Shown here: positions 50,650 through 53,980 of the stretch, in pieces
Numbering within the stretch: position 1 is the first letter of the stretch
How the letters are laid out: every line of letters starts with the position of its first letter
Assembly: GCF_900104925.1 (NCBI RefSeq)
Contig: NZ_LT629735.1
Location: 2,016,291-2,080,290, forward strand
DNA from: Opitutus sp. GAS368
Lineage (GTDB): Bacteria > Verrucomicrobiota > Verrucomicrobiia > Opitutales > Opitutaceae
Direction: 5' to 3'
DNA: 64,000 nucleotides
The notes under the pieces: model-generated
The model's input: the letters and a program-made list of their open reading frames with translations, nothing else
The model's database searches: none
What the model was told of the DNA's origin: nothing
Program-made: the position numbers and the translations under genes

Positions 50650-50928
50650 GGAGCCTTTTTGAAGGGGCGTTTTGACCCGCGCAACCGCCAAGTCACCGCA
50701 ACGTAACGCCATTGGCCGATATTGGCTGGCGCCCGCCGGGTTCAGTGGGCTAGTTTCGCGGGTGCATCCAATCCCCCGGCCCGGCCGTATTTTTGCTGGA
50801 ATAACCCCGCTTCCCGGCCGCTCTCACCCGCCACCAGTTTATCCCCACTTTTGACTTTCAGTCCATGCCCCCGGCCCGTTGCCGCGTGGTGTCGGAATGA
50901 AGAAACAGAACCCAAAATCCAGCATCAC
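50650..50928. promoter_or_regulatory. Divergent spacer amidohydrolase / RiPP precursor
   Basis: Both genes must be transcribed from here. A TTGACT hexamer at 50851-50856 lacks a convincing -10 box at the right distance, and I see no obvious metal-regulator palindrome. No gene is seen. Confidence 0.4.
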
Positions 50929-51288
50929 ATGAACAAATCCTACAAAACGATCATCACGGCCGCGGCCATCGCGGGACTTTACATGGGCGGCCTCGCCGCC
51001 AAGTCCTACGCGGGCGACGCCGGTTCGACGGCCCCGGCCGGCGAAAAAGCCAAGGACAGCTGCAAGGGCAAGGACAGCTGTAAAGGCAAGGACAGCTGTA
51101 AAGGCAAGGACGGCTGCAAGGGCAAGGACGGTTGCAAGGCCCATGACTGCAAGGGCAAGAACGACTGCAAGGGCAAGGGTGGCTGCAAGACCGCCGACCA
51201 CTCCTGCAAGGGCAAGAACGACTGCAAGGGCAAGGGCGGTTGCAAGGCCGAGACGGGGGACAAGAAGGACGAGCCCAAGAAGGGCTGA
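50929..51288 (+). CDS. Cys-Lys repeat RiPP precursor (bufferin-like)
   Basis: The 119-residue protein has a Sec signal (MNKSYKTIITAAAIAGLYMG...KSYA, cleavage likely after Ala 28), a short acidic/Ala linker and a repeat region with eleven Cys at residues 45, 51, 57, 63, 69, 74, 80, 86, 93, 99 and 105. Every Cys is followed by Lys, and the unit is CKGKD[SG]. It ends in a charged tail (GDKKDEPKKG). It is followed by DUF692, DUF2063 and DoxX genes, the arrangement of bufferin-type clusters in which the MNIO converts precursor Cys to thiooxazole-type heterocycles and the exported peptide binds copper. Unlike classical bufferin precursors it is not a DUF2282 protein but a low-complexity CKGK repeat. 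Modification and metal are inferred. Confidence 0.85.
   Translation: MNKSYKTIITAAAIAGLYMGGLAAKSYAGDAGSTAPAGEKAKDSCKGKDSCKGKDSCKGKDGCKGKDGCKAHDCKGKNDCKGKGGCKTADHSCKGKNDCKGKGGCKAETGDKKDEPKKG
51054..51138 (+). repeat. 18-bp tandem repeats in the precursor gene
   Basis: Five near-identical 18-bp units of the form gacagctgcaagggcaag encode the first CKGKDS hexads. Tandem structure suggests that the precursor can gain or lose units by slippage. Confidence 0.85.
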
Positions 51289-51313
51289 GGGTCCGCTAGT
51301 TGACCTTTCCACG

Positions 51314-51341
51314 GGGAGGCCGGGCGTCCGCCCGGTCTCCC
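51314..51341 (+). terminator. Terminator/attenuator hairpin between precursor and MNIO genes
   Basis: GGGAGGCCGGGCG (51314-51326) pairs with CGCCCGGTCTCCC (51329-51341) through 13 positions with one G-U, followed by ttcttgtct. It lies 76 bases before the MNIO start, where partial termination would keep precursor mRNA in excess over enzyme mRNA. Confidence 0.6.
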
Positions 51342-51416
51342 TTCTTGTCTCCGCCCTCTTCCGGGTGTTGGCTGCCGGGTGACGGGGCCGCGCCCTCCGT
51401 CCGAACGTTCCGCATC

Positions 51417-52301
51417 ATGCCCGCCAACAAATTCAACGGCTACACCGACTACGGCATCGGCATCGGCCTGCGCATCCCGCACTACGACCACATCCTGAGC
51501 CGCAAGCCCACGGTCGACTGGTTCGAGATCATCTCCGAAAACTTCATGGTCGACGGCGGCCGGCCGCTCGAGGTGCTCGAGCAGATCCTGGCCCAATACC
51601 GCGTCGTCCAGCACGGCGTCGCCATGTATTTCGGCGCCGCCGACGGCCCGAACAGGGATTACCTCCGCCGCCTCAAGGCGCTCACGACGCGCACGAAGAC
51701 CCCCTGGCTTTCCGACCACCTCTGCTGGGGCAGCGTCGACGGCACCTATTCGCACGACCTGCTGCCCATGCCCTACACCCACGCCGCGGCGAAGCAGACC
51801 GCGGCCAACATCCGCCGGGTGCGCGACTACCTCGAGCTCCCGATCGCGGTCGAGAATGTCAGCTCCTACACCGAGTTCCACGTCTCCGAGATGACCGAGT
51901 GGGAGTTCCTCGCCGAGGTCGTCGAGCTGGCCGACTGCGGAATCCTGCTCGACGTGAACAATATCTACGTCTCGGCCAAGAACCACGGCTTCGACCCCTA
52001 CGCCTACCTCAACGAGATCCCGCACCACCGCGTCGCGCAGATGCACATCGCCGGGCACACCAAGTTCGAGAAATACATCCTCGATACGCACGACCACCCG
52101 GTGCTCGACCCGGTCTGGAAGCTCTACGCCCACGCCACGAAGCTCTGCGGCGTCACCGCCACGCTGCTCGAGTGGGACGACAAGATCCCCTCGTTTGACG
52201 AGGTCCACGACGAGGCCCTGAAGGCCCATGAATACATCGCGCAGGCCCGGGCCGCGAAAATCCCCGCCCCGCGTGAAACGGTTCGCTCCCGCCCGCGTTG
52301 A
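51417..52301 (+). CDS. DUF692 multinuclear non-heme iron oxygenase (MNIO, BufB-like)
   Basis: The 294-residue TIM-barrel enzyme begins GYTDYGIGIGLRIPHYDHILSRKPTVDWFEIISENF. It has the metal-site residues in VVQHGVAMYFG (His), WLSDHLCWG (Asp-His), IAVENVSSY (Glu), GILLDVNNIYVS (Asp/Asn), QMHIAGHTKFE (His), DTHDHPVLDP (Asp-His) and TLLEWDDKIPS (Glu). DUF692/MNIO enzymes carry two or three irons and oxidise Cys (or other residues) of ribosomal peptides, as in MbnB, TglH and BufB. The start at 51417 is the first Met before the conserved region. The precursor upstream and the DUF2063 gene downstream make peptide modification the expected role. Confidence 0.93.
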   Translation: MPANKFNGYTDYGIGIGLRIPHYDHILSRKPTVDWFEIISENFMVDGGRPLEVLEQILAQYRVVQHGVAMYFGAADGPNRDYLRRLKALTTRTKTPWLSDHLCWGSVDGTYSHDLLPMPYTHAAAKQTAANIRRVRDYLELPIAVENVSSYTEFHVSEMTEWEFLAEVVELADCGILLDVNNIYVSAKNHGFDPYAYLNEIPHHRVAQMHIAGHTKFEKYILDTHDHPVLDPVWKLYAHATKLCGVTATLLEWDDKIPSFDEVHDEALKAHEYIAQARAAKIPAPRETVRSRPR

Positions 52302-52312
52302 AGGCTTCACCC

Positions 52313-52426
52313 TGTCATTCTGAACGCAGTGAAGAATCCAGCAGGACGACCGCCGGCGCATGTTATTTTGGATTCTTCGCTTCAGCCTTCGCCAAGCCTA
52401 CGGCTGACAAGGGCGCTCAGAATGAC
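52313..52426. repeat. Nested palindromic repeat between MNIO and partner genes
   Basis: Outer arms TGTCATTCTGAACGCAGTG and cgctcagaatgacg belong to the widespread 'gtcattctgagc...gaagaatcc' element. Inside the right half is a second repeat, 'ttcagccttcgccaagccta', of the family seen at 2317-2395. It ends 11 bases before the next start codon. Confidence 0.75.
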
Positions 52427-52437
52427 GGTTTCAAAGA

Positions 52438-53376
52438 ATGCCCGCTAAATTAAAACGCTTCGCTCCGGCGAAAGTCCATTCCACTACCGACCTCGCCGAC
52501 CTCCAGCGCGCCATGTGGCGCGTCATCTCGCGGCCGCTGACGGCGGACAACCAGATGCAACAACGCTGGACCGACGGCCGGCCGACGAGCGCCGTGGCCG
52601 CGCAGATCGCCAAGCCCAACGACCGGCTGACCTCCTTCGAGCGGCTCGAGATCTACAACCGCATGTATTGGTTCCGGATTCTCGACAGCCTCTATGACGA
52701 CTGCCCGGGCCTGCGCGCGGTGCTGGGCGACAAGAAGTTCATCACTCTCGCCGAGGCCTATCTCGTAAAATACCCGTCCGCCTCCTTCACGTTGCGCAAC
52801 CTGCCCAGCCGGCTGGCGCACTTCATCAAGGCGGAGCCGCGCTACACCCGGCCCCACACCGCGCTGTGCCACGACCTCGCCCGCTTCGAGTGGGCGCGCG
52901 TCGTCGTCTTCGACACCGCCTCGCAGCCGGTCTTCACGGTCAACGACCTGCTCGACGTGCCGGCGGCCAGGCAGGGTAGGCTGAAGCTCGCGCTGCAGCC
53001 CTACCTGCAGCTGCTGCAGCTGGACCACCCGGTGGACGATTTCCTCCTCGCGATCAAGCGCGAGGCCGAGCTGTTGCGCGGCGACGCCAGCAACGCCCCG
53101 TCGGCGCGGCGGAAATTGCGCAAAAACAAGGCCGCCCTGCCGGCGCGCGCCCTCACCCACGTGGCCGTGCACCGGTTGAACGGGCAGATCTACTTCAAAA
53201 AGCTCGAGCCGGCGGCCTACCGCATCCTCACCGCCCTGCGCCGGGGAAAAACGCTCGAGCAGGCGCTCGCCACGGGCATCCCCCGGACGAAGCAAGCCCG
53301 CGCCGACTGGGCCCCGCGGGTCCAGGGCTGGTTCCGCAGCTGGATGGAGCTCCGCTGGCTGTGCCGCCGGGAATAA
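52438..53376 (+). CDS. DUF2063 partner protein of the MNIO (BufC-like)
   Basis: The 312-residue protein has the DUF2063 N-terminal helical domain (LADLQRAMWRVISRPLTADNQMQQRWTDGR, FERLEIYNRMYWFRILDSLYDDCPGLRAVLGDKKFITLAEAYLVKYP). A C-terminal winged-helix-like part (YRILTALRRGKTLEQAL) probably recognises the peptide. In known systems such partners bind the leader and the MNIO and are needed for modification. Family membership is clear; details are inferred from bufferin/methanobactin-type clusters. Confidence 0.9.
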   Translation: MPAKLKRFAPAKVHSTTDLADLQRAMWRVISRPLTADNQMQQRWTDGRPTSAVAAQIAKPNDRLTSFERLEIYNRMYWFRILDSLYDDCPGLRAVLGDKKFITLAEAYLVKYPSASFTLRNLPSRLAHFIKAEPRYTRPHTALCHDLARFEWARVVVFDTASQPVFTVNDLLDVPAARQGRLKLALQPYLQLLQLDHPVDDFLLAIKREAELLRGDASNAPSARRKLRKNKAALPARALTHVAVHRLNGQIYFKKLEPAAYRILTALRRGKTLEQALATGIPRTKQARADWAPRVQGWFRSWMELRWLCRRE

Positions 53377-53395
53377 CAGACCGGCATCCAGTTTC

Positions 53396-53470
53396 TGTCA
53401 TTCTGAGCAAAGCGAAGAATCCATTTCCGTGCACTCGCCCTGATGGATCCTTCGCTTCGCTCAGGATGAC
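53396..53470. repeat. gtcattctgagc-type palindrome between partner and DoxX genes
   Basis: TGTCATTCTGAGCAAAGCG and ttcgcttcgctcaggatgac arms, a simple copy of the element that is nested at 52313-52426. Confidence 0.75.
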
Positions 53471-53521
53471 CCGAGAACGAATACGATGGAATAACCGCCG
53501 GATCTTAACCTCCCACCAACC

Positions 53522-53980
53522 ATGCAACTCCGCTCCCTGCTCGCCAAGTTCGATGGCCTCGCTGCGTTCCTCCAATCGCCGCTGCTGCTGGTCATCCGCC
53601 TCTATTGGGGCATCTCCTTCGCCCAGACCGGCTGGGGCAAGCTCATGAACCTGGATCGGACCACCGAATTCTTCACCAGCCTCCACCTGCCGATGCCGCG
53701 CCTCAACGCCATCGCGGCCGGTTCGACCGAGTGCTTCGGCGGGGTGCTGCTGGCCCTCGGGCTGTTCGCGCGGCCCGCGGCGGTGCCGCTGACCTTCTGC
53801 ATGATCGTGGCCTACGCCACCGCGGACAAGGAGGCCCTGCTGGGGATCTTCAGCGCCCCGGACAAATTCCTCGGCGCCGACCCGTTCCTGTTCCTCTTCG
53901 CCGCGCTCCTCGTGCTCGCGTTCGGCCCGGGCAAGCTGTCGCTCGACGCGCTGCTCGCCCGCAAGACTGCGGCCAAATAG
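53522..53980 (+). CDS. DoxX-family membrane protein of the RiPP cluster
   Basis: The 152-residue, four-helix DoxX protein has RLYWGISFAQTGWGKLMNLDRTTEFF, GSTECFGGVLLALGLFARPAAVPLTFCMIVAYATAD and FLFLFAALLVLAFGPGKLSLDALL. DoxX proteins accompany many DUF692/DUF2063 clusters, where a redox or membrane role is suspected but not established. It is the last gene of the rightward cluster; the next gene is convergent. Confidence 0.9.
   Translation: MQLRSLLAKFDGLAAFLQSPLLLVIRLYWGISFAQTGWGKLMNLDRTTEFFTSLHLPMPRLNAIAAGSTECFGGVLLALGLFARPAAVPLTFCMIVAYATADKEALLGIFSAPDKFLGADPFLFLFAALLVLAFGPGKLSLDALLARKTAAK

Follow-up and report, generated by a model that had tools for sequence, protein, structure and literature searches.

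A probable hexad-expanded Cys-Lys captophorin with a putative lineage-specific extracytoplasmic function control circuit in Opitutus sp. GAS368

In this study, we analyzed a 64,000-nucleotide stretch of the genome of Opitutus sp. GAS368 (contig NZ_LT629735.1, positions 2,016,291 to 2,080,290; hereafter the window), in which genes for a Cys-rich precursor, an enzyme of the MNIO (DUF692) family, a DUF2063 protein and a DoxX protein follow one another in that order on the + strand. We consider it likely that they form a Cys-Lys captophorin (bufferin-2-like) operon, which would yield a modified, exported copper-buffering peptide and is under probable control of an extracytoplasmic function (ECF) sigma factor. 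A precursor group with Cys-Lys motifs has already been published (PMC13097082), and the window's protein joins this group; what is unusual is an added array of Cys-containing hexads, not the Cys-Lys motif. Overall, the system is ordinary in kind and unusual in form, probably a hexad-expanded Cys-Lys captophorin with a probable lineage-specific ECF control circuit.

Architecture and family assignment of the precursor

The Cys residues of the precursor lie at positions 45, 51, 57, 63, 69, 74, 80, 86, 93, 99 and 105. Lys directly follows each of them (11/11), and their spacings are 6,6,6,6,5,6,6,7,6,6 (six in 8/10), in agreement with an initial annotation made from the sequence alone. That annotation had also recognized the four-gene, one-strand cluster, which is borne out by the open reading frames and Pfam matches. 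An 18-bp tandem repeat (10.9 copies, 74% matches) is located at 51051-51247, and the hexad pattern, allowing up to two mismatches, is confined to the precursor gene within the host genome (4.15 Mb, a single contig with one MNIO match). The residues fall into five hexads (Cys 45-69) followed by an intact six-Cys core (Cys 74-105), so that the earlier description of a CKGKD[SG] protein is correct for the first part, residues 74-105 being a different conserved six-Cys core. Sec export, also proposed at that time, is suggested by a signal-peptide-like N-terminus recognized by inspection and by its conservation, and the claim stands to that extent. The features are as follows.

50798..50827, + strand: ECF-type promoter-like dyad GGAATA-N17-CTCTCAC, starting 131 nt 5' of the precursor ATG
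50929..51288, + strand: captophorin (bufferin-2-like, Cys-Lys group) precursor, 119 aa, 11 Cys (NF050166 BufA2 48.6 bits, cut-off 60)
50929..51012, + strand: signal-peptide-like N-terminus, about 28 aa, with a conserved AGLxxG motif (by eye and conservation)
51061..51147, + strand: hexad array, Cys 45-69, four CKGKD[SG] units and a final CKAHD (Cys positions, tandem repeat)
51148..51243, + strand: six-Cys core, Cys 74-105, spacing 6,6,7,6,6 (Cys spacing)
51417..52301, + strand: MNIO (BufB-type maturase), EWDD at residues 252-255 (NF050167 341.3 bits, cut-off 310; PF05114 350.7 bits)
52438..53376, + strand: MNIO partner of PME-type 1, DUF2063 with an RRE-like C-terminal part (PF09836 48.3 bits; fold match)
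53488..53516, + strand: second promoter-like dyad GGAATA-N16-CTCCCAC, 5 nt 5' of the doxX ATG (whole-genome pattern match)
53522..53980, + strand: DoxX family membrane protein (PF07681 81.2 bits; NF050144 HvfX 64.9 bits, under the cut-off of 80)

With a score under the cut-off, the precursor is a relative of the NCBIfam BufA2 equivalog and not a member of it. No match to DUF2282, the mark of Buf1, was found in its Pfam listing (E up to 0.1), where the one entry was a weak DUF7640 match, as expected from its initial annotation as a non-DUF2282 precursor. The EGKCG motif of the Lys-Cys (oxazolin) group is absent from the sequence, and none of the five NCBIfam families listed for the protein belongs to that group. 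With 11 Cys, five in hexads and six in the core, the protein falls outside Buf2 as delimited by six or 12 conserved Cys (PMC12452194), and with all 11 Cys in Cys-Lys motifs it falls within the Cys-Lys captophorins, which are defined by multiple such motifs. Because this group is already in print (PMC13097082) and the relationship to BufA2 is evident (E 6.8e-13), the suggestion of a distinct precursor class had to be abandoned. NCBIfam matches to collagen-like adhesin and wall-binding families were far under their cut-offs and were taken as compositional. A low-complexity artefact was also considered and rejected, as the reading frame, signal peptide and core are conserved across phyla.

Linkage of Cys-Lys precursors to MNIO genes

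A total of 111 related MNIO loci were collected: the window, 30 others from a family sample (30 of the 44 MNIO places found there, besides the window's, were taken as loci) and 80 named contigs, the latter being the best 80 of at least 564 relatives, among which near relatives are over-represented. An upstream Cys-rich protein with CK motifs was found in 109/111 loci, and therefore the pairing of precursor and MNIO is more than chance. No CK-type precursor was found in L016 and L123, and both were dropped. In L016, a 237-aa protein with a twin-arginine-like leader (L016:724-1437) lies 5' of a divergent MNIO (49% identity); it contains CAGGNSCANLGGC, which resembles one three-Cys core module, and has no Pfam match.

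Moreover, the BufA2 model matched 40 places in 31/150 genomes (the host included); in 39 of them an MNIO match is no more than 368 bases away, and the sole exception is 92 bases from its contig end. The linkage of CKGK-type proteins to DUF692 genes, which the initial annotation had set as a test, is thus supported. In this genome-wide search, places were scored singly and 0/150 genomes exceeded the cut-off; the window's precursor scores 31.2 and 24.7 bits in this way versus 48.6 as a whole, and whole-protein scores were relied on. A Caulobacter control was unmatched in the search, though PMC12452194 mentions a Buf2 there.

A GC-rich hairpin of 13 pairs with a weak T tail is situated between the precursor and MNIO genes (51313-51342) and could reduce expression of the enzyme relative to the precursor; terminator-like hairpin sites number five in the scanned stretch, compared with 3.1 expected from shuffles. 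By eye, similar imperfect palindromes (GAAGAATCC ... GGATTCTTCGC and alike) flank the DUF2063 gene at 52316-52430 and 53398-53470, possibly as repetitive extragenic palindromic (REP)-like elements.

Precursor variation among related loci

Merging nine rows whose MNIO was identical to another over 262 residues reduced the 109 loci to 100 distinct ones. Precursor states were assigned by Cys spacing after trimming leading Cys at a spacing of 14 or more (L015, L091 and L099 by hand); the precursors of L071, L080, L091 and L122 are truncated at a contig end or lack a start, and one has an early start (L011). The six-Cys core alone (6,6,7,6,6) was observed in 60/100 loci, where it precedes related MNIO genes in Verrucomicrobiota and Acidobacteriota, and the core with extra Cys in 16/100, including the window. 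In another 11, at least six Cys are present but not in the spacing of the core: seven CK repeat arrays (L007, L020, L064, L066, L069, L074 and L077), one near-core form (L121; 6,6,9,6,6) and three irregular ones (L002, L008 and L072). Four Cys spaced 6,14,6 occur in eight loci, and five or fewer Cys in other arrangements in five. Altogether, the series spans 3 to 11 Cys, 0 to 3 strict three-Cys modules and 0 to 9 hexad matches. The smallest precursors seen, with one three-Cys module, are those of L090 and L112 (CAGKNTCKGKGGC, CKGKNTCKGKGGC).

On an MNIO tree (quick search, 100 rows, no bootstrap), the window belongs to a 10-row set (Shimodaira-Hasegawa-like approximate likelihood ratio support 99) with five core-plus-extra and five array precursors. 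The no-core state requires six changes on this tree, three of them forced by well-supported branches, and the core-plus-extra state eight changes, four of them forced. Precursor architecture changes faster than the MNIO enzyme, and in the Opitutaceae-like lineage hexads have repeatedly been added to the core or have substituted for it, with the signal peptide and enzyme conserved. For example, three genomes of one genus have the core alone (L021), hexads plus core (L019) and an array without core (L020), and L062, the closest relative among the loci examined, likewise has 11 Cys, with three strict three-Cys modules but without any match to the hexad pattern. The eight 6,14,6 loci, all acidobacterial, are without core Cys 3 and Cys 4 (L101, L109, L114, L124, L129, L132, L136 and L138); this joint loss maps to one change on the tree and hints that the two Cys work together.

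The signal-peptide motif [ASTG]G[LIMFV]xxG was present in 90/92 precursors with a start and in 0/13 other signal peptides, the latter being a small control set picked heuristically from the same loci. For Cys-Lys precursors, its conservation fits preliminary indications that the recognition sequence of Buf1 includes the signal peptide (PMC12452194).

Scored as whole proteins against the BufA2 model, ten relatives reached at most 44.5 bits (36.1, 36.1 and 44.5 for three core-only ones), and no match below E 0.001 was obtained for L066, L020, L114 and L112, which are arrays and short forms. Three Pseudomonadota BufA2 proteins over the cut-off (97.6-104.4 bits) have the spacing 6,6,7,6,13, with Lys after 3/6 Cys. 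Since the first four spacings are alike and the ends differ, the verrucomicrobial and acidobacterial precursor looks like a sister form of the Pseudomonadota BufA2.

MNIO, partner and DoxX proteins

The window's MNIO exceeds the BufB cut-off; its nearest relative among the best 80 named loci, in an Oleiharenicola metagenome-assembled genome, is 92% identical, and all MNIOs of the loci used are at least 70.6% identical to it. In its EWDD motif, Asp occupies the site of FonB Phe250, immediately after the catalytic Asp, where structure 3bww has ERDF. Phe at this site has been assigned to the Lys-Cys group and Asp to the Cys-Lys group (PMC13097082). Asp was found in 95/100 loci, including 27/27 whose precursors are of the core-plus-extra or no-core kind; the remaining five MNIOs (Ala in three, Asn in one and Ser in one) all accompany core-only precursors. 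Asp is also present in 3/3 BufA2 loci from plasmids, and Asn and Gly in two DUF2282-linked MNIOs.

Where at least 1200 nt of sequence follow the MNIO gene, the DUF2063 partner was always found (93/93 loci), and where at least 2400 nt follow, DoxX was found in 57/69 loci. A structural model of the partner (predicted local distance difference test (pLDDT) score 92.9) matches the folds of TglI (8hi7_A, E 7.1e-6) and NGO1945 (3dee, E 1.1e-5) and, weakly, the RRE protein TbiB1 (E 0.7 and above); a sequence search of the PDB had given 0 matches. By Pfam match and fold, the partner is a PME1 protein (DUF2063 plus RRE), the type found in the Cys-Lys captophorin group.

A shared promoter-like dyad and an ECF sigma/anti-sigma pair

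Dyads were counted in the 96/100 loci with at least 150 nt upstream. GGAATA-N13..18-nTC was identified upstream of the precursor in 49/65 verrucomicrobial or own-family loci, including the window, and in 0/29 acidobacterial and 0/1 planctomycete loci. The unplaced locus L072 was counted as lacking it, yet has a dyad at 2141-2166, its precursor start having been set too early. The form GGAATA-N14..17-CTC occurs in 42/96 loci, compared with 0 for its reverse complement and a mean of 0.24 in mononucleotide shuffles. A sigma-70 promoter was also considered and rejected (0 found).

In the host genome, the pattern GGAATAN{14,17}CTCNNAY gave 12 sites, versus 0 for the backwards pattern. These precede the precursor, doxX, an ECF sigma gene (by 6 nt) and the genes for an exported MsrA and an exported MsrB; further sites lie in or before genes of unrelated appearance. 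One of the 12 is 7 nt before an NDH-2-like gene (L188; named by eye), and in G113 (L265) one is 4 nt before the gene of a protein with GCSSCPP; both are possible further regulon members. Eight relatives have 3 to 15 pattern sites each, with 0 to 2 for the backwards control. Twenty chosen sites in relatives were retrieved (19 in G093, G113, G037 and G004, and one in G003), of which 12 precede MsrA, MsrB or doxX. Together with the host, six genomes have the dyad before MsrA (Pfam PMSR; G093, G113, G037, G004 and G003) and five before MsrB (Pfam SelR; G093, G113, G037 and G004); the latter four relatives also have it before doxX, as in the window.

The sigma gene of the host is followed, in one operon, by a membrane anti-sigma-like gene. 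Among 40 distinct sigma/anti-sigma pairs, the dyad precedes sigma in 31, in 30 of them at 31-40 nt before the match start. Cys168 and Cys182 occur in each of 40 distinct anti-sigma sequences and His191 in 39 of them; all three residues follow an apparent membrane segment recognized by eye. The pair lies inside the cluster in 6/40 other MNIO genomes of the family sample (G004, G034, G024, G066, G058 and G049), in the order precursor-MNIO-partner-DoxX-sigma-anti-sigma. In L126, L121, L088 and L125, it is found upstream of the precursor. Both genes are near the cluster in 9/80 named loci, with L079, L080 and L072 apparently the same contigs as G034, G066 and G058. An anti-sigma match was obtained in 38/40 other genomes with a full MNIO match (37/40 at 100 bits), and its co-occurrence with MNIO at 100 bits has a nominal Fisher p of about 4e-12, the genomes not being independent.

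Comparison with known systems

With the published Cys-Lys captophorins, the window's system shares the combination of MNIO, PME1 and multi-Cys-Lys precursor and the Asp after the catalytic Asp; the MNIOs there are mostly from Pseudomonadota (PMC13097082), whereas here the system is verrucomicrobial and a hexad array stands before the core. Bufferin-2 (BufA2; Buf_6/12Cys, PMC12452194) has in common with it the initial spacing 6,6,7,6 and the CKG[KQ] motifs, and differs in Cys number and in the last core spacing (6 in the window, 13 in the three BufA2 compared). Among the EGKCG captophorins (fontiphorin, oxazolin and MmrA), repeat number likewise varies behind a conserved leader, MmrA of Microbulbifer having five to eight Cys (PMC12538549). 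However, the dipeptide is Lys-Cys there and Cys-Lys here, and the MNIO residue is Phe there and Asp here.

For the regulatory comparison, YedY is taken to be the methionine sulfoxide reductase MsrP. In Haemophilus, the targets of RpoE2/HrsE under hypochlorite are msrAB and a DoxX-COG3220-DUF2063 cluster (PMC7907618); in Neisseria, SigE/MseR governs MsrA/MsrB as well as its own operon, which includes a DoxX-like gene (PMC2893595). In Caulobacter, a YedY-type protein and two DUF2282-DUF692-DUF2063 operons, of which one contains DoxX, are under SigF/NrsF control, the msrA homologues being unchanged there (PMC3511200). As in these systems, an ECF sigma factor would govern an MNIO-DUF2063-DoxX cluster here, together with MsrA and MsrB in the case of Haemophilus and Neisseria. 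By contrast, the precursor here is of the Cys-Lys type, the dyad is GGAATA/CTC, and the anti-sigma protein, which shows one apparent membrane segment and then C-X13-C...H, has no Pfam match to NrsF. The window's regulon thus follows the logic of these regulons with different parts, the pairing of sigma factor and promoter being our inference. On plasmids of Sphingobium and Asticcacaulis (L280 and L281), BufA2 and DUF2282 precursors are neighbours and are accompanied by sigma and DUF1109/NrsF genes; in Asticcacaulis, the sigma and NrsF genes follow the BufA2-MNIO operon, to which a DUF2282 operon is also adjacent. No ECF sigma/anti-sigma system with a C-X13-C...H sensor was found in our searches of the open-licence literature of PubMed Central.

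Proposed mechanism and alternatives

The gene content, the core with hexads, the specificity residue, the partner fold, the shared dyad and the conserved Cys pair are established from the sequence and probably fit together as follows. The precursor would be made in the cytoplasm, where the DUF2063/RRE partner would bind its signal peptide as the MNIO oxidizes Cys of the CK dipeptides, most likely to 5-thiooxazoles with loss of 4 H each. Sec would export the modified peptide, and copper would be buffered in the periplasm. In this lineage, the gain of in-frame hexad repeats ahead of the older six-Cys core would have raised the possible ligand sites from 6 to 11, the motif read by the enzyme remaining unchanged. 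Transcription would probably be by the ECF sigma factor, with the membrane anti-sigma protein sensing periplasmic copper or an oxidant via its conserved Cys pair and His, and doxX and the genes for exported MsrA and exported MsrB would be driven by it as well. The precursor's many Cys and export signal support, at the level of sequence, the initial proposal of a bufferin-like, multi-Cys substrate of an MNIO and its partner.

Several observations weigh against this interpretation. The precursor remains under the BufA2 cut-off, Pseudomonadota BufA2 differ from its core by the last spacing of 13 and by non-CK Cys, and no-core precursors barely match the model (L007, 22.1 bits) or miss it (L066 and L020). 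An AlphaFold model of the precursor (pLDDT 47) says little. The sigma pair is about 0.96 Mb from the cluster in the host genome, and an anti-sigma match is also found in 52/109 genomes without a full MNIO match (33/109 at 100 bits). Two MNIO genomes, G113 and G094, have no anti-sigma match, and G113 still has the dyad before the precursor, doxX, MsrA and MsrB, which is unexplained. Finally, the dyad is lacking in 16/65 verrucomicrobial or own-family loci, and 8/20 chosen sites in relatives precede none of MsrA, MsrB and doxX.

It is unlikely, though worth considering, that only the six-Cys core is modified and that the hexads keep free thiols, serving as a linker or, in unmodified form, as a metallothionein-like or oxidant sink. 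The coming and going of hexads beside a common core would agree with this, as would the dyad shared with MsrA and MsrB, which suggests oxidant stress. However, seven of the 11 precursors with six or more Cys and no intact core spacing are CK arrays, and in these no-core loci the MNIO has retained the specificity Asp, and the partner is present wherever it could be assessed; an MNIO left without substrate would be lost. The CK dipeptide is also kept in all hexads of the window. Far less probable is an unmodified Cys-rich metal-binding protein that stands ahead of the operon by chance: the terminator-like hairpin does separate it from the MNIO gene, but the recurrence of CK precursors at nearly all related MNIO loci, and of MNIO genes beside nearly all BufA2-model places, speaks for a substrate.

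We regard it as doubtful that the target of the product is not copper but another metal or an oxidant, such as gold, chromium or hypochlorite. The related sigma regulon of Caulobacter responds to chromium and cadmium (PMC3511200) and that of Haemophilus to hypochlorite (PMC7907618), and the dyad common to exported MsrA and MsrB points in the same direction; against this, characterized captophorins generally bind copper (PMC13097082). We retain the Cys-Lys captophorin operon with a copper-buffering product as the preferred reading.

Implications

A broader proposal appears to us evenly balanced between true and false: that, in Opitutaceae-like Verrucomicrobiota, the gain and loss of CK hexads and three-Cys modules underlies the evolution of captophorin capacity; that the MNIO accepts any CK of an array, so that the older core is dispensable and a homopolymeric copper ligand can result; and that an ECF system with a periplasmic C-X13-C...H sensor couples copper buffering to periplasmic methionine repair. 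If so, one regulatory scheme with interchangeable parts would act on the captophorin precursors of all three groups. No paper linking copper buffering and periplasmic methionine repair in this phylum was found in our searches of the open-licence part of PubMed Central. The related loci constitute a natural substrate series for one enzyme type, suited to the question of multi-site processing by MNIOs and to that of whether Cys number sets copper capacity, and the shared dyad points to a testable regulator. The dyad further suggests that copper buffering and periplasmic methionine repair are parts of a single stress response in Verrucomicrobiota.

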